DNA of 64,000 nt from Puniceicoccaceae bacterium (GTDB lineage: Bacteria; Verrucomicrobiota; Verrucomicrobiia; Opitutales; Opitutaceae): the NCBI GenBank assembly GCA_007695295.1, contig REEB01000129.1, positions 1-64,000 of the forward strand, in the 5' to 3' direction. A model generated the notes under the pieces. It saw nothing but the letters and a program-made list of their open reading frames with translations, did no database searches and was not told the DNA's origin. The position numbers were made by a program, and so were the translations under genes. This document shows, piece by piece, positions 39,249-60,800 of the stretch (positions are counted from its first letter, which is position 1; every line of letters begins with the position of its first letter).

Positions 39249-40133
39249 CAGCCCCTGACCCCTTGGGTCCAGGCCACCTACGACCTGCTCGCCCAAAGCC
39301 TGGTCGACTTCTCCATCGACCCCTATTCCAAGAACGACCAGGCGGCGGCGCCCGAACTGCCCATCGAGCCGGGCGACCTGGTGCTGCGCGACCGCGGCTA
39401 CCTTCTTCCAAAGGAAATCCAAAGGCACGCCGAAGCGGGCGCCGACTGCATCCACCGGCACAAAACGGGCACCATCTACCTCGACCCCGAAACCGGCCGG
39501 GCCATCGATTTGCCCAAGATGCTGCGCTCAAACGCCAACCTCGACATCCTCGTGATGCTCAACAACGAGGAGCGCACGCCCGTGCGTTTGGTGAGTGCTC
39601 CCGTCGACGAGGAAACCGCCAACCTCAGGCGCATGAAGGCCAGGAAGGAAGCCCACGGCCACAATCCATCCAAAGCCGTCCTCGAACTCATGGACTGGAC
39701 CATCATGATAACCACCATCGCCCCGCGCAAGGCCGACTTCCGCACGCTGCTTGCCATCTACGGGCTGCGCTGGCGCATTGAGGTGATCTTCAAGGCGTGG
39801 AAGAGCCACCTGAGGTTCGGCAACCTGCACCGCGTCTCAAAAACCCAAATGCTCATCCTGCTCAAAGCCAGGCTCTTTTTGATCACCTGTTCGACCAACC
39901 TGCTGCACCGTGCGCTGGAGAGCTGCCTGTGGCGAAGACACCGACGGCGCATCAGCCTGCTCAAACTGATCGGCTTCCTCGCCGCGGCCCCGGCCAACAT
40001 ATTGCGCGCCTTGGCTTCGTTGAGCCTGGCGGACGCCGACAACCTCGATTTCCACCAGGCCCTCCTGCGCTACTGCTGTTATGACCGCCGCAAACGCAAG
40101 AATTTCTCCGATCTGTGGGAGCAGTTGGCTTAA
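39249..40133 (+). pseudogene. IS4-family transposase, 5' part missing
   Basis: The frame runs from CAGCCCCTGACCCCTTGG to TAA, with about 291 residues of protein-like sequence from residue PWVQATYDLLAQ onward. The DDE second aspartate region is present (LPIEPGDLVLRDRGYLLPKEI), as is the YREK-type signature YGLRWRIEVIFKAWKSHLRFG with the catalytic glutamate. The first catalytic aspartate and the N-terminal half are absent; the coding sequence begins abruptly at a tandem CCCCTTCAGCCCC junction. A GTG at 39381 could give a 250-residue product. The remains indicate an inactive transposase. The intact C-terminus reads WEQLA. Confidence 0.85.
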
Positions 40134-40194: not shown

Positions 40195-40530
40195 TCAGCA
40201 AGGCACTTCGAGCGTGAGCAGCGGCGCATGCTGCTGGGCGCCGTACACATCGCGGTCCCCGGGATGGCCCGAAACCACCGTGCGAGCCAGCACGACCTTG
40301 ACCGCCGAGGCGGGCGCGAACCAGTGGATCGCCTTCACCAGTCCTGTATCCAAGCCGTAATGACGGGCAATGACTTGGGCGGTCAGCCCGCCGCCGGCCC
40401 GCACCCGCTCGAAGGTACCGCGGTCCTGGAAGATGACATCCAGGGTCAGCTCGAAAGGCCCGGAGTTTTTGGAGCGGATGACCCGGGCCAGCGCCCGGAG
40501 CGGCGCGGTGGATGGACTGAAAGCACTCAC
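40195..40530 (-). CDS. DUF4387 protein, partner of the AtuA-like protein
   Basis: A 111-residue protein whose sequence (LRALARVIRSKNSGPFELTLDVIFQDRGTFERV, VKAIHWFAPASAVKVVLAR, SGDPGD-like SGHPGDRDVYGAQQHAPLL) matches DUF4387, the small subunit-like protein found next to DUF1446/AtuA proteins. The start is a GTG overlapping the AtuA stop (GTGA at 40527-40530); the longer alternative starting at 40614 overlaps AtuA too much. The stop codon is at 40195, four bases from the right terminal repeat of the IS relic, so the last residue or two may have been changed by the insertion. The core is intact. Confidence 0.82.
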   Translation of the reverse strand: MSAFSPSTAPLRALARVIRSKNSGPFELTLDVIFQDRGTFERVRAGGGLTAQVIARHYGLDTGLVKAIHWFAPASAVKVVLARTVVSGHPGDRDVYGAQQHAPLLTLEVPC

Positions 40531-41936
40531 CGGGTGGAGACTGCCGGAGAAGGGGCGGTTTGTCCGGTACACTGGAGGATGCGCACCGGAAAGAGCACGA
40601 CGGGGTCGCCGCACTGCCAGAGATGGTAGATGGAAAAGGCGTACACTTCGCCCGCCGGGATGTCCGAAGGTGAGAAGGGGAACGCCAAGTTGCCCGCGGT
40701 CGAAAGCCGGCCGGGGTAGCCGTGGTGGAGCAGGGTGGAGCGAGTCAGGGAGCAGACTGTGTCGGCGGTCGCGCGGTCATCCGCAACCGCCTCAATGAGG
40801 ATGCCCAGCTCGTGGGCGGGAGCATGCCGCAGCGGCTCCGGGTGACCCATGACGCCGTCTTTTCCGTAGACGCGGAAATAGAGCTCGGCGCGAAGGTTCT
40901 CGCGTCTCAAAAAATCGGATACGTGATCCCTGACGATGGCGAGGATGGCGTCGATGCCTTTGATCATGACCGGATCGCGGCATCCGGCGATCGTGATTGT
41001 GCGGCAGCCGATCCGGCGCGCACCCTCCAACTTCAGCCGGTAGGGCGGACCTGCTTGGAAACGGCTGCCGCGGACTTCGACCCGGCCGTCGCCGGTCTCG
41101 GTGAAGGAACAGTCCCGGAGATCGAGCCTGCCGCCCGGGCCGGGCAGCAGAGCGGGATCGGATTTCTCGTACAGCGTGTGGGCGGCGGTTGACTCGGCGG
41201 TAAAGATCCGGTCGGGAGAGAGTGCCGCGACGGTAAAACCGTCCCGCCGGAGGGTCCCGAGCACGCAGTCCGCCCCGGATCCCGGAGTGGCGGCGATGGC
41301 CGCGCATTCGAGGATTTTGCCGAGGTGGAGGGCAGGTCCGGGATCGAAGCCGCGCAGCAGCGGCAGGGCGGCGAAAACCCCCGGGTCGTAAGCGCGCCCG
41401 GCCAGGACCACGCCGCAGCCTTGGCGAAAGGCCGCCTGCAAGGGCTCGGGGCCGAGCTGGGCCACGATCGCGGTCGAGGCCTCGACGGCTTCGGCGGTCA
41501 GCTCGGGCGCGCCGTCGAGCCGCTCAATCCGGCCCGTTTCCAGCGCATTCAGAACGGTTGCTCGTGGCACATCGGCCGCGACCACGCCCAGCCGGAACGC
41601 CAGGTTTTCCTCCCGCGCCACTTCGTGAACGATGGCCTCGCACCAAGCCAGGTGAGGTGCGGCTCCCGCGCCCCCCGCGCTGCCGATGGCGACGGGGATG
41701 CCCCGCGGAACGGCTTCGCGCAGGATGATGCGCAAGTCGCGTTTGACGGCCGCCCGGTCGGTGAAGGATTTGCCGGATCCCAAATAATAGGGCCCCGGAT
41801 CGGTGGAGCCGGCATCGACTGCGATCAGATCCGGCTTTGCTGCCAGTCCGCGCTCAAACGAGGTTTCGGGAAATCCGTACCCGAGGATGGCGGTGGGGGA
41901 GAGGATGGTGAAAGCGGGCTCTTGCGGATCGATCAT
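40527..41936 (-). CDS. AtuA-like (DUF1446) protein
   Basis: A 469-residue cytoplasmic protein of the acyclic terpene utilisation AtuA/DUF1446 family: ILSPTAILGYGFPETSFERGLAAKPDLIAVDAGSTDPGPYYLG, IPVAIGSAGGAGAAPHLAWCEAIV, VVLAGRAYDPGVFAALPLLRGFDPGPALHLGKILECAA, and later IAGCRDPVMIKGID. In Pseudomonas atu loci AtuA accompanies citronellol degradation, but in other phyla these proteins appear with DUF4387 in organic-acid catabolism and their chemistry is not settled. The start at 41936 is the only ATG giving the family N-terminus. With DUF4387 it forms a two-gene translationally coupled operon, divergent from the ABC cluster. Confidence 0.85.
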   Translation of the reverse strand: MIDPQEPAFTILSPTAILGYGFPETSFERGLAAKPDLIAVDAGSTDPGPYYLGSGKSFTDRAAVKRDLRIILREAVPRGIPVAIGSAGGAGAAPHLAWCEAIVHEVAREENLAFRLGVVAADVPRATVLNALETGRIERLDGAPELTAEAVEASTAIVAQLGPEPLQAAFRQGCGVVLAGRAYDPGVFAALPLLRGFDPGPALHLGKILECAAIAATPGSGADCVLGTLRRDGFTVAALSPDRIFTAESTAAHTLYEKSDPALLPGPGGRLDLRDCSFTETGDGRVEVRGSRFQAGPPYRLKLEGARRIGCRTITIAGCRDPVMIKGIDAILAIVRDHVSDFLRRENLRAELYFRVYGKDGVMGHPEPLRHAPAHELGILIEAVADDRATADTVCSLTRSTLLHHGYPGRLSTAGNLAFPFSPSDIPAGEVYAFSIYHLWQCGDPVVLFPVRILQCTGQTAPSPAVSTR

Positions 41937-42049
41937 GGAAGGGGGGTGGCAGCGGCATGCTGGCAGGTCCTCCGGCAGGCACAAGACCCGGGGTGATTTT
42001 GCGTTGACCCGGGCAGGATTTTCAAACGGCCTTCGGAAAGGCGGGCGAC

Positions 42050-42826
42050 TTGCCTGCGTGTCCTCTGAACCCCCAACAGACTGCCTTTGTGAATCGCCTC
42101 TCCGGTGAGGTCCTGATCGATGCCCGGAACGTCGAGCGGCTCTATCGCGCGCGCGGCGAAAACGTCTATGCCCTCAAAAGCGTCACTCTGACCATCCGCC
42201 GGGGTGAATACGTCTCCTTGATGGGGCCCTCAGGATCGGGCAAAACCACGTTTTTCAACATGATCGGGGCACTCGATCTGCCCACGGGCGGCTCCATCAC
42301 CATCGGTGGGCGCAACCTGCGCGATCTGAGCCCGCCGGAGCTGGCCTACCTGCGTTGCGTCAACATCGGGTATATCTTTCAGAACTACAACCTGATCGAG
42401 GTTCTCAGCGCCCTCCAGAACGTCGTCCTGCCAATGGAGTTTCTCGGCCTTTCCAAAAAGGAGGCGGAGGCACGGGCGGCGCGCCTGCTTGAGCGGGTCG
42501 GACTCGCGGAGCGCATGCACCACCTGCCCGGCGAGCTTTCAGGCGGCCAGCAGCAGCGGGTGGCGATCGCCCGTGCTCTCGCCAACGACCCCAGCCTCAT
42601 CCTTGCCGACGAGCCGACCGGCAACCTCGACTCCAACACGGCGGTGACCATCGTCGAGCTGCTCAGCGGCCTCAGCCGCGAACGGGGCGTGACGGTGGTC
42701 TCCGCCACCCATGACCACCGCATGCTCGATGTTTCCGACCGGGTCGTTTACCTGCGCGACGGGCGGGTCGAAAAAATTGTTTCCCGGGCGGAGCTGGAAA
42801 TCTCCGTGGGAACCATCGCGGACTGA
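42050..42826 (+). CDS. ABC transporter ATP-binding protein (MacB/LolD/FtsE type)
   Basis: A 258-residue ATPase with Walker A GPSGSGKTTFFNMIG, Q-loop YIFQNYNLIEVLSALQNV, signature LSGGQQQRVAIARAL, Walker B LILADEPTGNLD and H-loop VSATHDHRML. The family resembles LolD, MacB and FtsE, which power FtsX-type permeases rather than ordinary importers. The start is taken as TTG 42050 because GGAAAGG lies 8 bases upstream; a GTG at 42089 is an alternative and would lose 13 residues. It is followed 6 bases later by a DUF6785 protein and then by the FtsX-like giant, so it probably energises that permease. Confidence 0.93.
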   Translation: MPACPLNPQQTAFVNRLSGEVLIDARNVERLYRARGENVYALKSVTLTIRRGEYVSLMGPSGSGKTTFFNMIGALDLPTGGSITIGGRNLRDLSPPELAYLRCVNIGYIFQNYNLIEVLSALQNVVLPMEFLGLSKKEAEARAARLLERVGLAERMHHLPGELSGGQQQRVAIARALANDPSLILADEPTGNLDSNTAVTIVELLSGLSRERGVTVVSATHDHRMLDVSDRVVYLRDGRVEKIVSRAELEISVGTIAD

Positions 42827-42832
42827 AGCCCC

Positions 42833-45730
42833 ATGCCCGCAACCATCGCCACCCTTGCGCTCGGGATTCTTCTCATCCTGGTCCTGACGCCCCTGGCGCA
42901 ATTTCTGACGGTGATGACGGTCAATGCGGATATCGAGACCGGCACTCCGGTAGGTTGGGCGGTGGGCCTGATTTTCAGCCTCGTCCTGGTGATGGCCGCA
43001 TTGCGGGCGTTGGCCCGGTGGGCGCCACTGGGGCCCGGCCGGCTCGTCGTGCTCTATGCTATGCTGACCCTGGCAGTGCCGCTGATGAATCTCGGACTCG
43101 TGCGGCCTTTTTACAATGCCTCCATGGCGGTGGTGGAGACTTACCTTCACTTTTCGGTCAACACCTACCGCATTGCCTACAACTCCCTTCATCCCGACTG
43201 GTTTCCGAAGATTCCAACCCTCGATGGTCTCGCCTGGCACCAGGCTGAGCGGACGCTCGAGCTGCTGGACGACTCCGCAGCCGGCCGCGAACGGGAGGAA
43301 GCCGGGGCGTTGCTGGCCCGGGCGCTCCGGGAAGCCGAAAGTGGATTGAAGTTGCTTGGCGAGGCCGAGGACGCGGCGATCGTCCGCACGCTCGCTGATG
43401 TCCGTGACCGCTACGGGCGCGCGGCCCTCCGTGGCGCGGTCGGCCGGCTCGGGCCGGACCAGATCCTCAGGATCGATGATCTCGGCGCCGGGGACGTCTT
43501 GGCTGCTTGGGGTCTGGCGGCCCCCTTGGCGGAGCGGCGGGCCAAGGTGATGGAGGCCAGCCGGCGGGCCGCGGCGGAGCTGCCCGCGCTTCTCAATGGC
43601 ATCAGCGAGCTGGAGCTGAGCCTGGTGCCGGAGGTGCGTTCCGCCATCGACCGCAGTTCCCAGGACCGCCTCGAAGCGGAGCTGCGGCGGCTGGCTCCGG
43701 AGGAGCACGACGCTCTGGAAAGCCGGGTCGCGACCGTGGTTGCTCCCCGCTTCGATGCGCTCCGGGAGCGGGTGGCGGCCTTGGGGCGGGCGGACCACGC
43801 GCTCGTCCGCCGCATGTTGCAGGAACGCGCCCGCGAACGGCTCGCGGCCATGGAGCGCTCCGCCTATGAGGCCGAACTGGCGGGTTTCGTCTACCGCGCC
43901 AACCGCAACGACCGCCTCGCGATGGCCCGACAGGATGGGACCGATGGTAGTCCGAATATGAATACCTACGGCTTCCGCCACACTCTCTGGCAGGATCCGG
44001 CGGCGCGCCAGGCCCGGGAGCGCCAGTCTTGGAGTGAGAACCTCTCCGATCTCGTCGCAGGCATCCCCTGGCAATTGTGGAGCGGTCCGCTCCTGCGCTG
44101 GGGCACGCTTTTTCTCTGCATCTTCCTGTTTCTCATGTGCCTGGCGGAGTGGCTGCGGCGCAAGTGGGTGGAACGGGAAAACCTGCCCTTCCCGCTGGTG
44201 GAAATCGCCGATCATCTCCTCCGGCCGGACCGAAAGCTGGAAAACGCGGAAGATCCCCGCGAGCCGGAGCCTCGCGACCGGCCCTTCAGCCCGGCCCTGC
44301 TCTCCGGCCTCGCCCTCGGTTTTCTCATTCTCTCCCTGGAAGCGATGGGACACTACAACCTCACCGGCGGAGAGTGGACCCTTTTCTTCGATGTATCCAA
44401 AAACTTGTTCACCACCGGTGCCCTCGCCGAGATTGACAAGGTGTTTTTTGTCATCTCCCCCATCGTGCTGGGGATCGCCTTTCTCGTCAGTCTCGAGGTC
44501 AGTTTTTCCATCTGGGTCAGTTTTGTGATCTACACGGCGGTGTTCTGGATCATCGGACTGCATCCAACGGCGATCCGCGACAGCGTCTATACCGGCTGGG
44601 CGGACGGGCGGTTTTATCCCTTCCCCATGGAGCAGATGATGGGCGCCTGTTTATGCTACACTCTCATCGTGCTATATAAATCCTGGAGTGCGGCCCGGGC
44701 ACCGGCACCGCCCGGTCCCGAGGGAGTCCTGGTGGCCTCGCCATTGATGAAAGCGGGCTTGGTCGGGCTGCCCCTGGTGGTGGCGGGGTTGCTTTGGAAC
44801 CTGGGCGTGCAAAGCATTCTGCTGCTGGTCCTCTTCGGGCTGGCGGTGCTGGCACAGACCATCGCGGTGGCCCGCGTGCGGGCGGAGACCGGCCTGCCCA
44901 CGCACCACATTTCCTACGAATTCACCAAGTTTCCCATGGTGCTCGGACTGACCGGGATGACCGGATCAAAGGTCTATGTCTCGTTTATATCAGTGGTGTT
45001 TCTCCCGGTGACGTTGCTTTTCCGGACCCTGCCGCAGATGTTGGAAAACCTCGAACTGGCCCGGCGGACGAAGGTGGCTTACGGCACCCTCGCCGTCGCT
45101 TCGATCCTGGCGGTGGTGACGGCCATTGGCGCCGGGTTGGTGAGTTTCCTCCTCTACTCCTACTATCTCGGCGAAAGCTTTCAGGGTGCCAGCGTGCATG
45201 CCGGCCAGGGGCCGGCGGGGGCGACCCAGTTGGCTTCCTATCCGCTCTGGGTTTCCCACTTTCGCGGGGAAGCGGGACTCGACCAATATACTTCGGTGCA
45301 CTGGGTGCGGATTGTCTTCGCGGTGGTGGGCTTCGGTGTGGTGGCGGCGCTGGCCTGGCTGCGGGGTCGGTTTCTTCGTTTTCCCATCCATCCGGTTGGT
45401 TACATGGTCGTGCTGCTGACGATTTATTACGGCTGGGCTTCCCCCTACTTCAAGGGGGATGCCGGAACCGGTGGGGCGACCTGGGTCTGGGGCAGCGTGC
45501 TCGTGGCCTGGATCCTGAAAAAGCTCATCATCAAATACGGCGGCATGAACACCTACAAGGCGGCCAAGCCCTTCTTCATCGGCCTGGTGGTTGGATCGGT
45601 CCTGGCGATCTTTGCCTGGAACGTGCTCGACCTGACCGCGACCCTGCTCGCCGAGCACTGGCTGGAAAGCCCCGGAGACTTCATCCGCGCTTTTCTCGAC
45701 ACCCGGCCGTATTCACCCAGGTATTACTGA
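42833..45730 (+). CDS. Large DUF6785-type integral membrane protein
   Basis: A 965-residue polytopic protein. Three N-terminal membrane segments (residues ~5-105) are followed by ~280 mainly helical, charged residues, perhaps extracytoplasmic (e.g. ELPALLNGISELELSLVPE, RRMLQERARERLAAMERSAYEAEL), and then ~10 membrane segments to the C-terminus. WQLWSGPLLRWGTLFLCIFLFLMCLAEWLRRKWVERENLPFPLVEIADHLL matches DUF6785, found in transporter-like proteins of Planctomycetota and Verrucomicrobiota and resembling OPT/YSL transporters. Function is unknown. It is 6 bases downstream of the ABC ATPase gene and 4 bases upstream of the FtsX-like gene. The helical insert is unusual for a transporter. Confidence 0.75.
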   Translation: MPATIATLALGILLILVLTPLAQFLTVMTVNADIETGTPVGWAVGLIFSLVLVMAALRALARWAPLGPGRLVVLYAMLTLAVPLMNLGLVRPFYNASMAVVETYLHFSVNTYRIAYNSLHPDWFPKIPTLDGLAWHQAERTLELLDDSAAGREREEAGALLARALREAESGLKLLGEAEDAAIVRTLADVRDRYGRAALRGAVGRLGPDQILRIDDLGAGDVLAAWGLAAPLAERRAKVMEASRRAAAELPALLNGISELELSLVPEVRSAIDRSSQDRLEAELRRLAPEEHDALESRVATVVAPRFDALRERVAALGRADHALVRRMLQERARERLAAMERSAYEAELAGFVYRANRNDRLAMARQDGTDGSPNMNTYGFRHTLWQDPAARQARERQSWSENLSDLVAGIPWQLWSGPLLRWGTLFLCIFLFLMCLAEWLRRKWVERENLPFPLVEIADHLLRPDRKLENAEDPREPEPRDRPFSPALLSGLALGFLILSLEAMGHYNLTGGEWTLFFDVSKNLFTTGALAEIDKVFFVISPIVLGIAFLVSLEVSFSIWVSFVIYTAVFWIIGLHPTAIRDSVYTGWADGRFYPFPMEQMMGACLCYTLIVLYKSWSAARAPAPPGPEGVLVASPLMKAGLVGLPLVVAGLLWNLGVQSILLLVLFGLAVLAQTIAVARVRAETGLPTHHISYEFTKFPMVLGLTGMTGSKVYVSFISVVFLPVTLLFRTLPQMLENLELARRTKVAYGTLAVASILAVVTAIGAGLVSFLLYSYYLGESFQGASVHAGQGPAGATQLASYPLWVSHFRGEAGLDQYTSVHWVRIVFAVVGFGVVAALAWLRGRFLRFPIHPVGYMVVLLTIYYGWASPYFKGDAGTGGATWVWGSVLVAWILKKLIIKYGGMNTYKAAKPFFIGLVVGSVLAIFAWNVLDLTATLLAEHWLESPGDFIRAFLDTRPYSPRYY

Positions 45731-45734
45731 CGCC

Positions 45735-48700
45735 ATGACGACCAACCGGAGCAACGGGCGGATCAATGGCCGCGGACAGGGTGGGGCGGGCTCCCCGGCC
45801 CGGGATGGGTCGTCGCCGGCCCGGTGGATCCGGCTTGCCATGGCCTTGATCCCGGCTCTCTCGGCGGCGGCGGCGGCCGGCATCGCGGGGGACCTCAACC
45901 GTACCTTGGTTTCCCAGCTCGCACCCGGCGAACGGCATCGGTTGGAGTCGCTGGCTGCGCTTTCCCCTTCGTTTCTGGAAAGCCTCGAGGCCTTGGCCGC
46001 GCCTTCGGAAGTCGAAGTGCGCACCCGCGCCCTGCTGGAGGTGGACACACTTTTCATCGGCCATCGCTCCACCGATGAAGAAGGACGCGCCCGCATTCAC
46101 CACCACTTGGAGGCCGTTGCCCGGGAGCTGGAGCCGTATGGCGTCGAACATCTCGGTGTCCTCCGCGCCGAAGCGACAGTCCCCGTGGAACTTGACCGAC
46201 GGGTCGATCCCGCCGACCGCGAACCGCCCTCGCGGATCGAAGCCGGCGGACAGTCCTGGCGAATCCATCCGGTCTGGCCCAACGGAGCCATGCCCTCCCT
46301 GGCACCGGCGGAGGGGTTGAGCGGCCCGCTCATCGACACGGGGCACGCCAGCTGGGAGGCGATTGAAGGGCTGCCGCTCGATGGGGCGATTGCCTTGATG
46401 GATTTCGCCGGAGGACGGAACTTCGAGCGGCTCTTCGCCCACGGAGTCAGGGCGGTGATCGTATTGGAATCGCCTTCGATGAGCCGCCACCAGGCCGAGA
46501 ATCTTTTCTTCAACACTCCGGCGGCCTTTCCCAGATTCTACGCGGAAGCCGCGGAGGCCCGCGAACTGCGCGCCCTGGCCGCCACTCCGGGCACGCGAGT
46601 GACGGTCCACGGTGGCGCCATCTATGAAAACCGGATCGTTGAGACCCATTTCCTCTACCTGCCGCCCTCACCCGAGCGCACGTTTCAGCTCAAGGAGGGC
46701 GACCTGCTCGAACTCATCGCCGCTCACTATGGCCTGCGCAGCCGGGAGCTGATCGACGCCAACCAGCTCGAGTCGCCGGTTCTCCGCCCGGGGCAGCAAC
46801 TCCTCATTCCGGGCCGGGGCGCCACCCACACGGTTCGCGCCGGCGAGTGGGCGGACCGGCTGGCGGCCTTTCATGGACTGGACCCGCGGCGTCTGCTGGA
46901 GCACAATGGGCTCGGCGCCGAAGAGTTGGAGCCGGGGGTGGAACTACGCATCCCCGTGGCGGAGGAGCCGATCACGTTTTTCATTCCCATCGACAGCGTC
47001 TCCACGGTGCCCGGGGTGGCCCATGGCGCGAAGGTGGCGGGCAATTTAACGGCTGGTCTGATGCTCTTGGAACACTTTGCGCGCTCGCCCTTTCTTCACC
47101 GCAGCAAAGGGATCCTCTTTGTCTTTACGGATGGAGACTCCGTCGGCGGACTCGCCAGCCGCACCTTCGGCGAATACGCCATGCTGCGGGACGGGACCTT
47201 CGCATCGCGGGCGCAGCCGGCCGCAATGGGTGTGTCGCTGGAACGGTTGCGCGAAGCGGAGGCTTGGTTCGAGGGTGGGGCGGCGCCCGAGGCTGCCGCC
47301 CGCTGGCTGGTCGAGGAGTGGCTCCACGTACGCCTGGAGGATGTGAGGGTGGCGCTGGCGGAAGAGCGGATCGAGCACTTGGTGAAGCTTCCCACGCTCG
47401 AACCCTCGTCGGCCGCCCATGCCGCCACCGCCGCGGTCGTCGCTGACCTCGACAACCGCCTCGCCGAGCTCCTGGCGCTGAGGCGGCGTTCGGTGCTGGA
47501 CCGCAGCTTGGGCCAGGCCCAGCGCCTGGAGCGGCTGGCGGCGGAGCTGGCCCGTCCGGAGACGGCCGCCCGCTTCGGCCCGCTCGGGCTCGACCGCTCC
47601 ACTCTAGCGGTCCGTTTCCGGGCCGAATTGGAGGAAGTCCGGCGGCGGGAGGCCTACCATCGTAACAACCTCGAGGTCGTCGCCACCGTGCTCGACCGGC
47701 TGCAGGGGGCGGGTGGGGGCATCCGCCTCGGCTGGGCCATTGATCTCTCGTCCGGTTCTCCGCACCTCGGCATCACCGAGGGCAATGCCAGCCAGTTTCG
47801 TGTGCCCTATCCCGTCGCCTCCGGCCCGCTCGTGCGCGCCATCGGCACGCGTTTCCGCTCGGTCCTGGCTTTGGCCGCGGAACGGGCGGGCTGGCCGGAG
47901 GAGCGGGCCTTTGTCACCGACGAGGACCGGCGGGATTTCCCCGTGCTGCCGCACTTCGCGCCAGCCGCTTATCCGGAGTTTTGGACGCTCGGCAACCTCG
48001 CGGTGCTGCCCCTCGGAACGCTCAACGATCGTCTCGAATTGCTGGATACACCCCATGATGTGCCCGACCGCTTTGATTTCACCAACCTCGCCCTGCAGAT
48101 CCGCGGCCTGCTCGTGCTTGCCGCCCTCCAGGTCGAAAGCCCGCTCGACTCGCCGGCCCCTTCCCGGTTGACCCGGCGCCGCTTCGGCACCCTTGAGGGC
48201 CGCACCCTCCAGTTCAACCTCCGCTCCGGCATCGACGCCCAGGATCCGGTCCCGGGAGCCATCGTGTACTATCCCGCCACCAAAGCCTGGGAAGGAGAGA
48301 TCTCCGCGCACAACTCCATGGTCTACCGGGGCGTGCGCAAGGGGCTAGTCCGGATTGCCGGGCTCGACGGCCGCTACCGGATCCCCCTCGAAGCGGTTGA
48401 CCTGCCTTCCTGGCGGTATTCGGTTTTTGCCTACGGACTGAACCGCGAGAAGGCCCTCTTCGACCACGTCCACACTTTCGGCCAGGTCGGCACGGCCAAG
48501 CAATCGCCGGTCTTCCGCCTGCTTGACAGCCGGGTGGCGGAGAAGAACCTGGTCATGGCCGAGCTGCATCCGCTGGCCTTGGTGACCGGCCCGGATCCGG
48601 CCGACTACAGCACCATCGGAGGCGGGCAGTATGCGGAGCAAAATTACCAGGTGGTCGATGCGGTTCTGCGCGGCGAGCCGCGGCACTATGCCCTCGACAA

Positions 48701-51329
48701 TCCCCGCCTGCACTACGGGGAGCACCAGCCGCAGACCACCATCCTCTACCTCCCGGAAGGCTCCCGGGGGTCGCTGCTCTTCCAGTCGGGCGGCCGCTAC
48801 CGGCTCATGCTCGTGGGGGAGATGGATGCGGGCGGACGCGGCCGCGGCTGGAGGATCGGTCCGCTGCCGGACGGTGACCCCAATCGCGTGCTCCGGCTGG
48901 CCCCGTTGGCAATCGCCCGGCAGATGCAGGCGCTGGCGGAACACCGGCGCGATGAGTTCGCCCGCTTCGGGATCGCCTCGGAAACGGTCGACGCCGCCCT
49001 CCGCCGGAGCGCGGAGCAGGCCGCCCTCGCCACCGAGGCCGCCGCGGAGCACCGCTGGCGGGAAGCCGAGGGCGCCGCCCGGGAGGCCTGGGGCATCCTG
49101 CTGCGTACCTACCCGCGCGTCCTCCAAATGGGCCGGGAGGCCGTCTTCTCGGTCATCCTCCTGATGGCGCTGCTCGTGCCGGCGGCTTTCTTTCTTGAGC
49201 GACTGTTGGTCGGCGCCCGCCACATCGTCGCCCGCCTCGCGGGTACAGCGGGGTTCTTTGCGCTCGGCGTCCTGTTTCTCAACACCTTTCATCCCGCCTT
49301 CCAAATCGCGATTTCCCCCGTGATCGTGGTTGTCGCCTTCATCATGATCCTGATGTCGGTGATCGTGCTGGTGCTGGCCTATGGCCGCTTCGAAACCCTG
49401 CTGCGGCGGGCCCGAATCGAAGGCGGGGAGATCGAGAGCGAAGAGATCGCCCTCGCCAGTTCGCTGGCCACCGCCCTCTCCCTCGGGGTCTCCAACCTCC
49501 GGAAACGGCCCTCCCGGACTTTTCTGACCACCCTCACTGTCACCGTGCTGACCTTTTCGATCGTGGCCTTCGTCTCCGTCTCGGGCAGCGACGCCATCGC
49601 CAAGCGTAGTGTGGAGCTGGATACGGAAGTGGACGGACGCACGATCGTACCCGAGCCGCCGGTTTATGACGGAGTTCTCTTCCGCGCCTTTTACTGGCAG
49701 TCCCTGAGCGAGGCTTTTCTCTCCGCCATCGCAAGCGAGTTCGGCTCCCGGCACGAGACCGCCGTGCGCGCCCACTACATCGAGGTGGAAGGCGGCAACA
49801 ACGCCGACCGCGAGGGCGTCAACCAGATCGAAATCCGCCGGGGCGCCGCCACCACCATTGTCACCGGCCTCATGGCTTTCGAGCCCGCGGAAACGCGCTT
49901 CACGGGGCTGCACCGGGCGGTCGGCGGGGAGCAGTGGTTTCGCGCCCGGGATCCGGACACGGGCCGGGAGGCGGACCGCTTCACCGTCATCCTTCCCGAG
50001 ACCGCCGCCCACGATCTCGGGATCACCGGCGACGAAATCCTCGATGCCGACGGCAACCGCCGGCCGGAGGATGAACTGCCGCGGGTTTCCATGATGGGGC
50101 AGTCTTGGCGGGTGATCGGGATTCTGGATACAGAACGGGCGGACCGGATTCGCGATGTGAACGGCCGCAGCCCCGCCATGGTCGACTACCTGCGCAGCGC
50201 CATGACCCCGGGAGCGACCGGGGATCTGATCAACGAACCCACCATGGCCTACCACCTGAGCTGGCGCGAGCTGGCCCTGGTGCCGTGGGAGGCGCGGCGC
50301 GACGTGGGCGCGCGGCCGCGCTCGGTGGCGGTGAAATTCGCACCCGGGGATGACGGGGCGGCGTTTTTCGAAGGCATCGCGCTCCGGCTCAATCAGCCCG
50401 TCTTCGCCCATGTCGGCGGCGAACTGAGTTTCGTCACCACCCGCGTGCAGCGCACGGTGGGCGGCCTCGCGATGATCATTGTGCCCGTGCTCCTCTGCAT
50501 TCTGATCGTGCTCAACACCATGCTCGGGACCGTGGAGGAGCGGCGGGGTGAGGTCGGCATGCTCGGGGCCATCGGCCTTTCGCCCAACCAGATCTCGTTT
50601 TTGCTCCTCTCGGAATCAACCGTCTATTCTGTGCTCGGGATCGTGCTGGGTATCTTCGGCGGACTGTTTTTCGCCAATGCGATCAACTGGCTCGCGGCGG
50701 CGGGCATCCCGGTCTTCAGCACCCTTTCCTTCAATTTCACCTCGGTGACGGCGATGGCGCTCGCCCTTGCCACGGGCGGGGTCGTTTTGCTGGCCACCCT
50801 CATTCCGGCCCGCAAGGCCGCCGCGCTGGCCGCTCCCAGCGGGATGGCGCGGTGGGTGCTGCCGCCGCCGGCGGAGGACCGCACCATTGTCTTCGACCTG
50901 CCCTTCACCCTCACCCGCGGCAACGCCCTCGGGATGGTGGTGTTTTTCCGCCAGTTTCTTTCCAACCACCTCGAAAGCACCAGCGCCGACTTCAACTGCC
51001 GGCAGATCCGCGCCGGGCTGGCCGTCGATCCGGAAAACCGGCCCGCCCTCGAGCTGAGCGCCTCGATCTGGCTCACGCCCTACGACCTCGATGTGGCCCA
51101 GGAATTCCGGATGCAGGTCCAGGCCTCCGGCACGGAGGGCGTCTTCGCGGTCCGGATCATCCTGCGGCGGGTTTCCGGGGCGGAGGAAGCGTGGTTGAGG
51201 ACCAACTACGGCTTTCTCGATCTCGTGCGTCGGCAGTTCCTCTTCTGGCGCAATCTTCCCCCGGAGCGCCGCGAAGCCTACCTGAAGGAAGGCCGCCGGC
51301 TTCTTGAAACCACCGCCAGCCATGCCTGA
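45735..51329 (+). CDS. Giant FtsX-type permease with PA-like, LysM and pseudo-M28 extracytoplasmic regions
   Basis: An 1864-residue membrane protein. TM1 is near residues 30-52. A PA-like region spans ~205-310 (GAIALMDFAGGRNFERLFAHGVRAVIVL). Two LysM-like repeats lie at ~314-357 (FQLKEGDLLELIAAHYGLRSRELIDANQL) and ~363-408 (HTVRAGEWADRLAAFHGLDPRRLLEHNGL). An M28-like segment at ~413-470 (KVAGNLTAGLMLLEHFARSP, GILFVFTDGDSVGGLASRTFGE) lacks obvious metal ligands. TMs resume at ~1136; the FtsX/MacB core follows (NLRKRPSRTFLTTLTVTVLTFSIVAF at ~1255; VPVLLCILIVLNTMLGTVEERRGEVGMLGAIGLS at ~1580), then a soluble C-terminus of ~150 residues. It is a likely partner of the ATPase encoded upstream. Role inferred: ATP-driven envelope remodelling or sensing. 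Confidence 0.82.
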   Translation: MTTNRSNGRINGRGQGGAGSPARDGSSPARWIRLAMALIPALSAAAAAGIAGDLNRTLVSQLAPGERHRLESLAALSPSFLESLEALAAPSEVEVRTRALLEVDTLFIGHRSTDEEGRARIHHHLEAVARELEPYGVEHLGVLRAEATVPVELDRRVDPADREPPSRIEAGGQSWRIHPVWPNGAMPSLAPAEGLSGPLIDTGHASWEAIEGLPLDGAIALMDFAGGRNFERLFAHGVRAVIVLESPSMSRHQAENLFFNTPAAFPRFYAEAAEARELRALAATPGTRVTVHGGAIYENRIVETHFLYLPPSPERTFQLKEGDLLELIAAHYGLRSRELIDANQLESPVLRPGQQLLIPGRGATHTVRAGEWADRLAAFHGLDPRRLLEHNGLGAEELEPGVELRIPVAEEPITFFIPIDSVSTVPGVAHGAKVAGNLTAGLMLLEHFARSPFLHRSKGILFVFTDGDSVGGLASRTFGEYAMLRDGTFASRAQPAAMGVSLERLREAEAWFEGGAAPEAAARWLVEEWLHVRLEDVRVALAEERIEHLVKLPTLEPSSAAHAATAAVVADLDNRLAELLALRRRSVLDRSLGQAQRLERLAAELARPETAARFGPLGLDRSTLAVRFRAELEEVRRREAYHRNNLEVVATVLDRLQGAGGGIRLGWAIDLSSGSPHLGITEGNASQFRVPYPVASGPLVRAIGTRFRSVLALAAERAGWPEERAFVTDEDRRDFPVLPHFAPAAYPEFWTLGNLAVLPLGTLNDRLELLDTPHDVPDRFDFTNLALQIRGLLVLAALQVESPLDSPAPSRLTRRRFGTLEGRTLQFNLRSGIDAQDPVPGAIVYYPATKAWEGEISAHNSMVYRGVRKGLVRIAGLDGRYRIPLEAVDLPSWRYSVFAYGLNREKALFDHVHTFGQVGTAKQSPVFRLLDSRVAEKNLVMAELHPLALVTGPDPADYSTIGGGQYAEQNYQVVDAVLRGEPRHYALDNPRLHYGEHQPQTTILYLPEGSRGSLLFQSGGRYRLMLVGEMDAGGRGRGWRIGPLPDGDPNRVLRLAPLAIARQMQALAEHRRDEFARFGIASETVDAALRRSAEQAALATEAAAEHRWREAEGAAREAWGILLRTYPRVLQMGREAVFSVILLMALLVPAAFFLERLLVGARHIVARLAGTAGFFALGVLFLNTFHPAFQIAISPVIVVVAFIMILMSVIVLVLAYGRFETLLRRARIEGGEIESEEIALASSLATALSLGVSNLRKRPSRTFLTTLTVTVLTFSIVAFVSVSGSDAIAKRSVELDTEVDGRTIVPEPPVYDGVLFRAFYWQSLSEAFLSAIASEFGSRHETAVRAHYIEVEGGNNADREGVNQIEIRRGAATTIVTGLMAFEPAETRFTGLHRAVGGEQWFRARDPDTGREADRFTVILPETAAHDLGITGDEILDADGNRRPEDELPRVSMMGQSWRVIGILDTERADRIRDVNGRSPAMVDYLRSAMTPGATGDLINEPTMAYHLSWRELALVPWEARRDVGARPRSVAVKFAPGDDGAAFFEGIALRLNQPVFAHVGGELSFVTTRVQRTVGGLAMIIVPVLLCILIVLNTMLGTVEERRGEVGMLGAIGLSPNQISFLLLSESTVYSVLGIVLGIFGGLFFANAINWLAAAGIPVFSTLSFNFTSVTAMALALATGGVVLLATLIPARKAAALAAPSGMARWVLPPPAEDRTIVFDLPFTLTRGNALGMVVFFRQFLSNHLESTSADFNCRQIRAGLAVDPENRPALELSASIWLTPYDLDVAQEFRMQVQASGTEGVFAVRIILRRVSGAEEAWLRTNYGFLDLVRRQFLFWRNLPPERREAYLKEGRRLLETTASHA

Positions 51330-53373
51330 GGACGCTTCCAGCCCCGCCAAACCGCCGGCCAAGGGCGGGGACCGTTTTTTCGATGCCCGCTTCTCCATCG
51401 AAGCGATCCAGCACGAACCCTACGAAAACGGCTTCACCTGGCGCACGGTGCTGGGGGCGTTCTTCATCGCCTTTGTCATGCTGCCGGGACTCATCTTCAT
51501 GGGTCTCATGATCGGGCAGGACATGGGCACGGCGGCGGAGTGGGTCACGATCATCCTTTTTGTCGAGATCGCGCGGCGGTCCTTCATGACGCTGCGCAAG
51601 CAGGAGCTTTACATGCTCAAGTACACCGCCGCGCAACTCACCCATGTGGCCGGCGGCCTCGCGCTGGGCGGGGGCATGTTCGGCATGCTGGTCTGGAACC
51701 GCTACCTGCGCCACAGCGAGCCTTTTCACAGCTTCGGCATCGCCCACCAGGTTCCCGACTGGGTCTCCCCCTACGGAGACGCCGCCTTCACCGAGCCCTT
51801 CACCTCCCCGATCTGGCTGCCGGTCATCACCGTGACGCTGCTTTCGATGGTGCTCTCCAAGCTGACGCAGCTCGCGCTCGGCTTCATGGCCTACAAGGCG
51901 ACCGCGGACATGGAGAAGCTGCCGTTCCCGCTCGCGCCGATCAACGCCGAGGGGGCGATCGCCCTGGCCGAGACCAGCCAGGAAAAAAACAAGCGCGGCT
52001 ACCGGCAGTACTGCTTTGCCATCGGCGTGATCCTCGGGGCGGCTTTCGGCGCCTTTTATGTCGCCGTGCCGACCTTGACGGGCGCCTTTTTGGAGCGGCC
52101 GCTGCAGCTCATCCCGATCCCTTTCCTGGATTTGACGACCTCCTTCGAATCTTGGCTGCCGGCCGCGCCCATCGGGATCAGCCTCAACCTCGGCCTTCTC
52201 TTCATCGGCTTCGTGCTGCCCTGGCGGATCGTGGTCGGGATGGTGGCCAGCACGCTGCTTTTTCAACTCGTCCTCAACCCGCTGTTTCAGCGCGCGGGTT
52301 GGCTGCCGACTTGGGCGCCGGGGAAAGGCGCGATCGAAACAAATCTCTCCAACAGCGTCGATCTCTACCTCTCGATCGGGATCGGAGTGGCCTTTGCGAT
52401 TCTCTTTGTCGGCTTGTTCGGGATTGCCCGGGCCCTCCTCAATCACCGGCGCAATCGAGACCCCGGGGAGGGTGGATTCGACCTGCGCAAACTCTGGGAA
52501 CGGGACCGGGAGCGCGGGGATCCCCCTATCTGGGTGCCGCTGCTGGTCTGGATTTCGGCTTCCATCGGCTACGTGGTTTTTTCCAATCACCTCGTCAACT
52601 CCGGTCTGCCCGCGGAAGAGCGCTTCAGCATCTGGTGGCTGATCGGGTTCGCGTTTTTCTGGACGCCGATGAACACCTACATCAACGCCCGCATGTCGGG
52701 CATTGCCGGCCAGCACGCCGGGGTGCCGTTCGTCAGCGAAGGCGCGATTTTTCTGTCCCAGCACCGCGGGGTGGCGATCTGGTTCGCGCCTCTGCCCATC
52801 GCCAACTACGGCTACATGGCCGACCTGCTGCGGGAGACCCAGCTCACCCGCACCCGCTTCACCTCGATCCTCAAGGCGGAGCTGCTGGTCTTTCCGCTCC
52901 TCCTCTTTGCGTCGTTTCTCTACTGGAGCTTCATCGTGGGTTTGGCCCCCATCCCGTCGGACAACTATCCCTACGTGCAGCAGTTCTGGCCGCAGTTTGC
53001 GACCATGCAGGCGCTCTGGGCCTCATCGATGCAGGAAGGGCAGACCCTGCTCCTCGATGCGCTCAAGCCGGAAGTCATCCTCGGCAGCCTGGCCGGTTCG
53101 CTGGCGCTCTTCTCCGGCTTCGGAGTGGCCGGGATCAGCGCCCAATACCTCTACGGCGGCATTACCACCCTCACGCAGCTGCCCCACATGGCCGTCCCGA
53201 TTTTCATCGGAGCGCTGCTCGGCCGCTACGTCTTTGCCCGCCGCTTCGGCGTCGAAAAATGGACGAATTATACCCCCATCCTCGCGGTCGGCTTTGCCGC
53301 CGGCATCGGCCTGATCGGGATGTTCAGCATTGCGATCAACTTCCTCTGGTCGTCGATCGGAACGGGGTATTGA
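51322..53373 (+). CDS. OPT/DUF6785-like integral membrane transporter-type protein
   Basis: A 683-residue protein with about 14 hydrophobic segments after a ~35-residue soluble N-terminus. YKATADMEKLPFPLAPINAEGAIALAET and the central WWLIGFAFFWTPMNTYINARMSGIAGQHAGVPFV are typical of OPT-like transporter proteins, in the DUF6784/DUF6785 group. It differs from the 965-residue protein upstream in lacking the large helical insert, so the two may form a pair. The ATG at 51322 overlaps the preceding stop by 8 bases and gives a plausible N-terminus. It ends the operon; after it comes a repeat-containing, gene-free region to 54062. The transported substrate is unknown. Confidence 0.78.
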   Translation: MPEDASSPAKPPAKGGDRFFDARFSIEAIQHEPYENGFTWRTVLGAFFIAFVMLPGLIFMGLMIGQDMGTAAEWVTIILFVEIARRSFMTLRKQELYMLKYTAAQLTHVAGGLALGGGMFGMLVWNRYLRHSEPFHSFGIAHQVPDWVSPYGDAAFTEPFTSPIWLPVITVTLLSMVLSKLTQLALGFMAYKATADMEKLPFPLAPINAEGAIALAETSQEKNKRGYRQYCFAIGVILGAAFGAFYVAVPTLTGAFLERPLQLIPIPFLDLTTSFESWLPAAPIGISLNLGLLFIGFVLPWRIVVGMVASTLLFQLVLNPLFQRAGWLPTWAPGKGAIETNLSNSVDLYLSIGIGVAFAILFVGLFGIARALLNHRRNRDPGEGGFDLRKLWERDRERGDPPIWVPLLVWISASIGYVVFSNHLVNSGLPAEERFSIWWLIGFAFFWTPMNTYINARMSGIAGQHAGVPFVSEGAIFLSQHRGVAIWFAPLPIANYGYMADLLRETQLTRTRFTSILKAELLVFPLLLFASFLYWSFIVGLAPIPSDNYPYVQQFWPQFATMQALWASSMQEGQTLLLDALKPEVILGSLAGSLALFSGFGVAGISAQYLYGGITTLTQLPHMAVPIFIGALLGRYVFARRFGVEKWTNYTPILAVGFAAGIGLIGMFSIAINFLWSSIGTGY

Positions 53374-53622: not shown

Positions 53623-53804
53623 GCGGGCTCATCTTAATCGTAATCCTACTCCTAATCATAATCGACGGATCGAGTGCTGTTCTGCCAGCCGCATCCCTGA
53701 AGAACCATCTGGGTACGGCGCAGGACCTGAAGAAGAACGGGAATTGGGATTATGATTACGATCATGATTACGATTATGATTACGGGTTTGGACAGGGGTG
53801 TCCC
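53615..53804 (+). repeat. GATTAC-ended interspersed repeat, copy C
   Basis: About 190 bases in the same orientation as copy B. From GTGTCCCGCGGG, then AATCGTAATCCTACTCCTAATCATAATCGACGG, a core with ATCGAGTGCTGTTCTGCCAGCCGCATCCCTGAAGAACCATCTGGGTACGGCGCAGGACCTGAAG (positions 53668-53732 approx.), and a right tract of GATTATGATTACGATCATGATTACG units ending GATTACGGGTTTGGACAGGGGTGTCCC. Copy A at 11624-11806 is its closest relative. In this orientation a hydrophobic ILIVILLLIII-D-G-S-S stretch can be read, but this seems to be a by-product of the repeat. Confidence 0.85.
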
Positions 53805-57864: not shown

Positions 57865-60800
57865 ATGCTATATTTCCCGGCCTCTTCCCCGCGCGCTCGC
57901 GGAGCGTGCCTCATCCTGCTCTTTTGGTTTCTCTTCGCTTCCCTGGGGATGGCGAGCCCTGCGACGTGGACCGGCCTGGCTGGCGACGGTCTCTGGGAGA
58001 CGCCCGGCAACTGGTTGGGCGGAGCGTCGCCCGGCTCCGGAGAGGACGTCCTGCTGCCGGGAGGGGCGGGTGAAATCACGCTAAGTGGGTCGCATTCCGT
58101 GCGAAACTTGGAGCTGGAGGCTGGGTCGGTGCTGCGAATCCTTGGGACAAGCAACCTCACCGCCACGCTGTCGGTTTCGGAACAACTCCTCAACCACGGC
58201 ACCGTCATCCTGGATTCGGATGCCAATCGCACCGCCCAGATCAGCCTGAGCGCGAGCGCTGCTCTCATTAATGAAGGGCTGGTGGAGGCGCGGCCCGGAG
58301 AAGGAGGCAACCGCACTCTCAACGGCACGATCCTCAACCGTGGCATCCTCCGGGCGGCCCCGGGGCTGAGCTGGAGCCTCGGCCAGAACAGCCGCACCAT
58401 CACCCTGGAGTCCGGGGCAGTCGAGGGCGATGTCTTCATCGACAATGGGGATTTGGCGATCGAGGCCGGATTTGCGGCACAGATGGTGGCAGTGCGCTCC
58501 ACGGTCACGCTCACGCAACTCGATCAACCCGGCGCCACCGTCTGGGTGCAGGGGCAGTCGGGAACGACGACCCGCCTGACCTTGCCGGAAGGCATGGTCA
58601 ACCGCGGGACGCTGCTGCTGGAGGCAATCGCCGGCAGCGCCACCACCCGGCTCACCCCCCTGGGCAACGGCTTCATCAATGAAGGCACGGTCGTCGCCTC
58701 CGAGGGCACGGGTGGAGCGCGGTGGATCGAAGGCGGAGTGACCAACCGCGGTGTGATCGTGGCCGAGCCCGAGGTGGTGCTGTCGATCGGCAACAACACC
58801 AGCCATGTGCTGACCCAGGAGGAGGGGGCGGTGCTGGAAGGCCTGGGCACCATCCGCATCAACCAAGGGCTGCTGGATCTCCAGGGCGGCGAAGTGCACG
58901 GGAATGTGTTCGTCGATGGAGTGGAGCTGCGGGTGGGGGAGGGGCTTTCGCCCCAAACCATCGGCACGCGCGGCACGACTTTGCTGCACGAAAACCTCAG
59001 TCCGGCAGTGACCGTTTGGGTGCAGGGGCAGTCGGGAACGACGACCCGCCTGACCTTGCCGGAGGACATGATCAACCGCGGCACGCTGCTGTTGGAGGCG
59101 AATGCCGGCAGCGGCACCACCCGGCTGAACCCCCAGGGCAGCGGCTTCATCAATGAAGGAACGGTCGTCGCCCGCGAGGGCACCGGTGGAGCGCGTTGGA
59201 TCGATGGAGGCGTGGTCAACCGCGGTGTTATCGTGGCCGACTCCGGCGTCACCCTCAGCATCGGCACCAGTTTTTCGGATGTTCTGCTCCAAGAAGCCGG
59301 TGGTGTCCTCGAAGCGTTGGGTGCGATCCGCATTAGCCAGGGTTTGCTGGACCTCCAGGGCGGCGAAGTGCACGGGGAGGTGTTCGTCGATGGGGCGGAG
59401 CTGCGGGTGGGGGAGGGGCTTTCGCCCCAAACCATCGGCACGCGTGGCACGACTTGGCTGCATGAAAACCTCAGTCCGGAAGTGACGGTCTGGGTGCAGG
59501 GGCAGTCCGGAACGACCACCCGCCTGACGCTCCCGGAAGGCATGGTCAACCGCGGCACGCTGTTGCTGGAGGCGTTTTCCGGCAGCGGCACGACCCGGCT
59601 CACTCCCCAGGGCAGCGGCTTCATCAATGAAGGAACGGTCGTCGCCCGCGAGGGCACCGGTGGAGCGCGTTGGATCGATGGAGGCGTGGTCAACCGCGGT
59701 GTGATCGTGGCCGACTCCGGGGTGACCCTCGCCATCGGCACCAGTTTTTCCGATGTCCTGCTCCAGGAGGCGGGCGGCGTTCTCGAAGCCTTGGGCACCA
59801 TCAGCATCAACCAGGGGTTGCTGGACCTCCAGGGCGGCGAAGTGCACGGGGAGGTGTTTGTCAGTGGGGCGGAGCTGCGGGTGGGGGAGGGGCTTTCGCC
59901 CCAAACCGTCGGCACCCGCGGCGCAACTTTTTTGCATGGAAACCTCAGTCCGGAAGTGACGGTCTGGGTGCAGGGGCAGTCGGGTATGATCACGCGCCTG
60001 ACCCTTCCGGAAGGCATGATCAACCGCGGCACCCTGCTGCTGGAGGCGATCGCCGGCAGCGGCACGACCCGGCTCACCCCCCAGGGCAGCGGCTTCATCA
60101 ATGACGGCACCGTCGTCATCCGCGAGGGTACGGGGGGTTCGCGCTGGATCGATGGCGGGGTGGTCAACCAAGGGCTCATCCGGATCGAACCCGGTCTTGT
60201 CCTGATCCTGACCGGCAGTGGATCGGCGTTTTTTAATGCGGGGGTGTTCGAACTCTCCTCGTCCACCTTTTCCTTCAATGGTAGTCGGATCGTGAATACG
60301 GAATCCGGAACCCTGCGCGGCACCGGGCTGTTGAACCTCGGCGGCATTGTGCTTGAGCAGGCCGGGGTGCTCGAGCCCGGCCTCGGGGGAGAGCCCGGGG
60401 AATTGGCTGTGACAGGCTCGGCGGTTTTTGCCCCCACCGCTGTTTATCGCAGTGCGCTCGGAGGTTCTGAAGCGGAACCGACGGCCTCCCGGGTACATTT
60501 CTCCGGGACTGTCGAACTCGATGGCACTCTCGAACTCGACGCGGGAGAACTCTTTCCCGCCATCGGCGCAAATGTGGATGTGCTCGGTTACGACAGCCAC
60601 ACCGGCAACTTCGCCTTGCTGGTCGGAACCGTGCTGCCCGGTGGACTCGCCTTTGCGCTCGACTACCAAGCCGATCGGCTTCGCCTCACCGCCGAGACGG
60701 CGGATGACACCGGCCCGGTCGTCAGTGCCGCGGCCTTTGCCGGCGATGCCGTCCTGCTTCGCTGGGTGGACGCCTTCGGCCTTGATGCCGCCTCGGTGTC

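Follow-up and report, generated by a model that had tools for sequence, protein, structure and literature searches.

Several proteins with the M28 aminopeptidase fold, including the transferrin receptor, nicastrin and nicalin, are inactive and serve binding or assembly. A separate class of proteins, the type VII ABC systems, couples the use of ATP to the motion of external parts and is defined by its partners (PMC12646458). One of these, YbbAP, has 10 transmembrane helices and an external hydrolase (PMC12646458). The window analyzed here, a 64,000-nucleotide stretch of contig REEB01000129.1 from a Puniceicoccaceae bacterium, contains an operon in which a type VII permease carries a very large ectodomain of PA and M28 fold within its own chain. 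The features of the operon are as follows, with residue numbers referring to the permease unless stated.

42050..42826, + strand: LolD/MacB-type ABC ATPase (TIGR02211, E=6.7e-66, below the equivalog cutoff)
42833..45730, + strand: DUF6785/DUF6784 membrane protein (Pfam), distantly homologous to the OPT-like protein downstream
45735..51329, + strand: giant type VII ABC permease (open reading frame of 1864 amino acids, Pfam, collinear relative)
45828..45896, + strand: N-terminal hydrophobic segment, signal peptide or anchor (residues 32-54, hydropathy)
45987..46259, + strand: N-terminal part of the M28-like domain (residues ~85-175; relatives align with 2EK8 and BSAP; model)
46260..46625, + strand: PA-like domain (residues ~176-297; PA Pfam matches in relatives, fold search)
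46680..46811, + strand: LysM 1 (residues 316-359; Pfam, PDB profile match, model)
46821..46958, + strand: LysM 2 (residues 363-408; Pfam, PDB profile match, model)
46962..47201, + strand: first half of the degenerate M28 core (residues 410-489, with P418, D420, K433, D468 and S469)
47202..47714, + strand: helical hairpin inserted into the M28 domain (residues ~490-660; model secondary structure; short in compact relatives)
47715..48149, + strand: second half of the M28 core (residues 661-805, with D670 and D771 at the former D179 and H256)
48150..49139, + strand: beta-rich and helical stalk toward the membrane (residues 806-1135; model)
49143..49379, + strand: three extra transmembrane helices (residues ~1137-1215; hydropathy)
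49510..50822, + strand: MacB/FtsX-type core (transmembrane helix 1260-1283, second ectodomain 1284-1575, three C-terminal transmembrane helices)
50832..51326, + strand: C-terminal cytosolic domain, conserved, with no Pfam name (residues 1700-1864)
51304..53373, + strand: OPT/YSL-fold transporter-like partner (689 residues; predicted fold, Pfam matches of relatives)

The permease gene is intact. It is collinear with that of L041, which gives the best match over the full length in a sample of 95 genomes, is 48% identical and has LysM in the same place. Only LysM and FtsX exceed the Pfam thresholds in the 1864-residue protein, with one LysM-related model below threshold. The FtsX C-terminal domain (PF02687) covers residues 1580-1696 (50.9 bits against a cutoff of 25.5, E=2e-13), and the topology is of the MacB type as read from hydropathy only. 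Matches of the core to LolC and LolE are weak (21 bits against cutoffs of 362 and 473) and place it outside those equivalogs. The ATPase scores best as LolD, and its 206.8 bits against the FtsE model TIGR02673 lie under the cutoff of 264.85; judged from its sequence, this LolD-like gene probably supplies the cognate ATPase of a type VII system. The C-terminal domain is highly conserved, with many residues invariant throughout the family.

Neither PA nor M28 is matched by Pfam in the window protein, whether whole or as a fragment, and relatives were needed to recognize these domains. Peptidase_M28 is matched by all 25 compact relatives (best 2.7e-13) and PA by nine of them, as well as weakly by L041 and L057. 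There is a weak Pfam match to nicastrin in the family, and weak CarboxypepD_reg matches fall in the stalk region of two relatives. Searched against the PDB, a profile of the compact relatives matches PA-M28 aminopeptidases (2EK8, E=2.9e-19), nicalin and the transferrin receptor. An AlphaFold2 model of window residues 85-1137 (62 sequences; pLDDT 90.9, pTM 0.91) has 2EK8, BSAP of B. subtilis and PaAP of P. aeruginosa as its best PDB matches in Foldseek (1.2e-12 to 1e-10), followed by the transferrin receptor and glutamate carboxypeptidase II. The global TM-scores stay low (TMt 0.41-0.56 against the bacterial enzymes), which we attribute to the inserts and further domains that split the alignment. 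The fold predictions cover this ectodomain and the 51304-53373 protein, each alone.

In the model, the M28 domain extends from about residue 85 to about residue 805 and is interrupted twice, by the LysM pair (316-409), inserted between the M28 strands HFLYLPP and ITFFIPIDSVS, and by a helical hairpin (~490-660), about 170 residues long. The PA domain is inserted before the M28 core, and the fold matches are to enzymes that contain PA. A first-pass annotation of this DNA had described a LysM pair together with PA-like and M28-like regions at residues ~205-470, and had proposed structure prediction as a check. The LysM pair and the M28 fold are both present in the AlphaFold2 model, and relatives and model agree on the PA and M28 folds, but the M28 domain reaches beyond the limits given.

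Alignment to 2EK8 places P418, D420, K433, D468, S469, D670 and D771 of the window at H97, D99, D117, E151, E152, D179 and H256, respectively, in Vibrio aminopeptidase numbering. Among the metal and catalytic positions, the sole one kept is D179 (D670), and by this alignment acidic residues remain at three positions of the old site (D468, D670 and D771). An intact M28 metal site is found in none of about 110 relatives inspected, among them 20 additional members from the phylum. Relatives in other phyla show Y, D, E/D, H, F, D and D at these positions, a strikingly constant pattern: His stands at the old catalytic Glu in 67 of 67 relatives scored, Asp at the last His position in 67 of 68, and Asp or Glu at the D179 position in all 68. 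Compact relatives from other phyla have near-invariant Y-x-D, PGAE, GHF, LDLS and DTP motifs in place of the M28 metal site. These motifs could form a new ligand or metal site, and the site in the family looks replaced and constrained rather than randomly decayed. Since its site positions are largely replaced and no relative inspected has an intact set, we call the M28 domain a pseudo-peptidase and infer from these residues that it is inactive. The possibility of an ordinary peptidase fusion is ruled out, as none of about 110 members has an intact site. The first-pass annotation had noted the lack of recognizable metal ligands, had suggested that the degenerate domain binds rather than catalyzes, and had proposed to look for the ligands in homologues; the residues in the window and in the relatives support it on both counts.

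The LysM assignment is secure. PF01476 matches two stretches (50.7 bits against a cutoff of 20.9, E=1.7e-13 in the whole protein; E=6.5e-15 in the fragment alone), among solved structures the tandem LysM of a Thermus peptidoglycan endopeptidase of the NlpC/P60 type comes closest (4UZ2, E=1.8e-13), and two beta-alpha-alpha-beta units are visible in the ectodomain model. A chance match is ruled out by the E-value, the single insertion point in nine members and the model. These nine are the window, L041, L048, L049, L051, L052, L054, L055 and L057, with weak Pfam scores in L052 and L055. In a quick tree with some long branches, they and two truncated members make up one well-supported clade that spans Verrucomicrobiota and Phycisphaeraceae. 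The same tree places Poribacteria members, in which LysM lies elsewhere, within the PA region, in a separate clade; the different positions and different clades indicate that LysM was gained at least twice. Some Poribacteria proteins (L083, L087, L109 and others) reach 2,400-2,500 residues and carry, along with LysM, acidic repeats of the DNDGDGLIDE type in the PA region, which resemble calcium-binding repeats. Several records of the LysM clade (L050, L053, L055 and L057) come from bins named T3Sed10 or B1Sed10, presumably from soda-lake sediments.

Chitohexaose is contacted in the Thermus LysM by Gly24, Thr26, Leu27, Tyr28, Phe50, Leu52 and Gln53, in many cases through the main chain (PMC4356369). 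With the numbering of that paper mapped onto the 4UZ2 alignment, the residues of LysM 1 at these contacts are G, L, L, E, P, L and R. In place of the Gly-Asp-Thr loop that contacts GlcNAc in the Thermus structure, the window protein has Gly-Asp-Leu and Gly-Glu-Trp, and the clade mostly has xDLL; LysM 2 is among the least conserved segments of the ectodomain. Most of the family lacks LysM, as do all three paralogues encoded by this genome. The fold is certain, but sugar binding by the LysM domains of the window is less so, and is best called plausible. Because the paralogues lack LysM and the contact loop is altered, a grip on the cell wall is plausible but would not be the core job of the protein, and the pair may be regarded as a lineage add-on.

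The family is large, with at least 540 matches confirmed by tblastn in a scan of public genomes. The best 80 of these fall in Verrucomicrobiota, Phycisphaeraceae (Planctomycetota), Armatimonadota (with Zipacnadia), Latescibacterota, Poribacteria, Gemmatimonadota, Omnitrophota, TA06, WS1 and others. In a phylum sample of Verrucomicrobiota, 42 of 241 genomes have a strong match. Most relatives come from metagenome bins; in one Verrucomicrobia bin (L056, 9923-17532), the giant gene and its OPT-like neighbor are split over several frames, probably through sequencing errors. The three paralogues (L009, L010 and L011) lie on contigs C195, C15 and C225. Each is part of an operon that also contains OPT-like and DUF6785 genes of its own as well as a small permease of the MacB type; an ATPase open reading frame is seen in the operon on C195.

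The gene at 51304-53373 overlaps the permease gene by a few codons. Its product has no Pfam match in the window and no PDB match by sequence profile, so its link to OPT transporters comes from fold and from Pfam matches of relatives. Pfam OPT is matched by six of 44 relatives, and the model of the window protein (pLDDT 80.6) matches barley Yellow Stripe 1 (HvYS1, 7WST) at E=7e-9 and TM 0.61/0.69, well ahead of any other structure, the third match being at E=0.08. The upstream DUF6785/DUF6784 protein aligns with it by profile (hhalign 95.4%, E=1.9e-8); a literature search found no paper on DUF6785. Neighbors were surveyed with mechanically called open reading frames and BLAST against the genes of the window and its paralogues. 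An OPT-like gene is next downstream of the permease in 63 of the 73 loci with room for one, often overlapping it or within less than 100 bases; the other 10 have a different downstream neighbor, and several of them have an OPT-like gene elsewhere in the locus. This partner is better conserved than the permease ectodomain (71% against 42% to L048). In many relatives the cluster also encodes a second ATPase and a small permease of the MacB type; no such small permease was found near the operon described here. Among the recurrent neighbors looked for in the conserved neighborhood, there is no peptidoglycan hydrolase and no EnvC/PcsB-type activator.

Other features surround the operon. Upstream, an open reading frame at 39381-40133 (+ strand) reads like a fragment of an IS4-type transposase, and a divergent one at 40530-41984 (- strand) like an AtuA/DUF1446-type protein. 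Just past the operon, a 12-bp tandem repeat (GATTATGATTAC) at 53748-53784 encodes a DYDYD run in a small open reading frame. Farther downstream, a 474-bp tandem repeat (58537-60169; 3.4 copies, 86% match) lies within a long minus-strand open reading frame (58081-60669).

The best explanation as a whole, to which we assign a probability of roughly 45%, is that the operon encodes an ATP-moved pseudo-peptidase arm that works with OPT-fold transporters and, in one clade, is tethered by LysM. The permease would be a type VII ABC protein of the MacB/LolC/FtsX class whose large extracytoplasmic arm, of PA and M28 fold, has lost its peptidase site and may act as a receptor or handling domain. By analogy with other type VII systems, the use of ATP by the LolD-like ATPase would move this arm, and the moved arm might then act on the adjacent OPT-fold transporters, most likely by delivering peptide-like ligands to them or by gating such ligands. 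The LysM pair in the M28 loop would, in this clade, probably anchor the arm to peptidoglycan or hold it in position there. The domain anatomy, the family-wide loss of the M28 site, the conserved operon partners and the two separate gains of LysM are the observations on which this explanation is built, along with the predicted OPT fold of the downstream partner; from them we infer the mechanotransmission, the physical coupling to the OPT proteins, the peptide ligand and the binding of sugar by LysM. Several points count against it. The likeness to OPT consists of a fold match and weak profile matches, and the nearest relative of solved structure is a carrier of an iron chelate rather than of a peptide. 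The downstream neighbor is not OPT-like in 10 of the 73 loci, and the LysM contact loop is altered. The absence near the window of the small MacB-type permease seen in relatives also makes the complete complex uncertain. It may even be that the family is a new class of type VII machine, spread over many bacterial phyla: an aminopeptidase that has lost its activity would be moved by ATP and act as a receptor, passing peptides (perhaps cell-wall peptides in the LysM clade) to dedicated OPT-fold transporters. We regard this wider claim as doubtful. Among the papers searched, none linked FtsX to OPT transporters or to M28 peptidases.

Some alternatives concern single domains. The LysM pair could be a mere structural spacer that has lost sugar binding, which would be compatible with the other readings and would fit both the altered Gly-Asp-Thr loop of the window and clade and the poor conservation of LysM 2 relative to the rest of the ectodomain. 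However, many sugar contacts in the solved complex are made by the main chain, LysM-like sequence is retained in nine of the nine clade members read, and Poribacteria gained LysM separately, with one copy there retaining the Gly-Asp-Thr loop; we consider the spacer a possibility, but not the probable case. It is very unlikely that the M28 domain has retained metal binding, or that its site has been rewired for enzymatic activity. The near-invariance of the old ligand positions in other phyla (Y/H, D, E/D, H, F, D and D), including the His, Asp and Asp/Glu residues counted above, would suit such a site, but both canonical metal histidines are usually gone, and those relatives no longer have the catalytic Glu; in the window clade the new His is missing as well (D/E), and K, R or another residue occupies the bridging position.

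Other alternatives concern the machine as a whole. A LolCDE- or YbbAP-like extractor would pass inner-membrane lipoproteins or lipids to the ectodomain, with LysM reaching toward the wall. The LolD-like ATPase and the LolC/LolE matches of the core point in this direction, and type VII systems often extract membrane molecules (PMC12646458); those matches are far under their cutoffs, however, and the constant OPT-fold partner is left unexplained, so that an extractor appears unlikely. The first-pass annotation had favored an analogy with FtsEX, in which LysM would grip the sacculus and the helical insert and ectodomain would activate or recruit a wall hydrolase on ATP use. The relation of the core to the FtsX/MacB mechanotransmission class stands, and the LysM pair, the long helical hairpin and the inactive enzyme domain are in keeping with the idea; inactive LytM-domain proteins do regulate autolysins (PMC10336132). 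The link to a hydrolase is not supported: none was seen among the recurrent neighbors looked for, the constant partners have the OPT fold, the ATPase is best described as LolD and falls below the FtsE cutoff, and LysM is missing from most members and from the paralogues of the same genome. As the main account of this protein, the FtsEX analogy is thus quite improbable, and the pseudo-peptidase arm working with OPT-fold transporters is preferred.

No E. coli system (FtsEX, LolCDE, MacAB or YbbAP-TesA) corresponds to this fusion of a pseudo-peptidase to a permease with constant OPT-fold neighbors. The analysis also supplies a likely fold for the unnamed Pfam families DUF6784 and DUF6785 and for a large family, so far without annotation, from phyla that are poorly studied, and the separate, repeated gains of LysM make wall contact approachable with small purified fragments. 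With MacB, LolCDE, FtsEX and YbbAP-TesA, the giant permease has in common the FtsX-type C-terminal core, a periplasmic domain between transmembrane helices and an adjoining LolD-like ATPase. YbbAP, which has an external hydrolase as partner, likewise has extra transmembrane helices; relative to type VII systems the giant permease adds OPT-fold partners and, in front, an ectodomain of about 1,080 residues (PA, inactive M28 and LysM). In profile and predicted structure, it has the domain order and fold of the PA-M28 aminopeptidases BSAP, 2EK8 and PaAP, but it lacks their intact metal site, contains LysM and helical inserts and has a permease fused behind. The downstream partner has the same predicted fold as the OPT/YSL transporter barley YS1 (7WST), but at 14% identity, in bacteria and tied to an ABC operon. 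The LysM pair has the two units and the spacing of the Thermus tandem (4UZ2/4XCM), here within a loop of a pseudo-peptidase and with the contact loop altered. The transferrin receptor, nicastrin and nicalin likewise have an M28 fold without a peptidase site but, unlike the giant permease, are eukaryotic and are not fused to an ABC permease.
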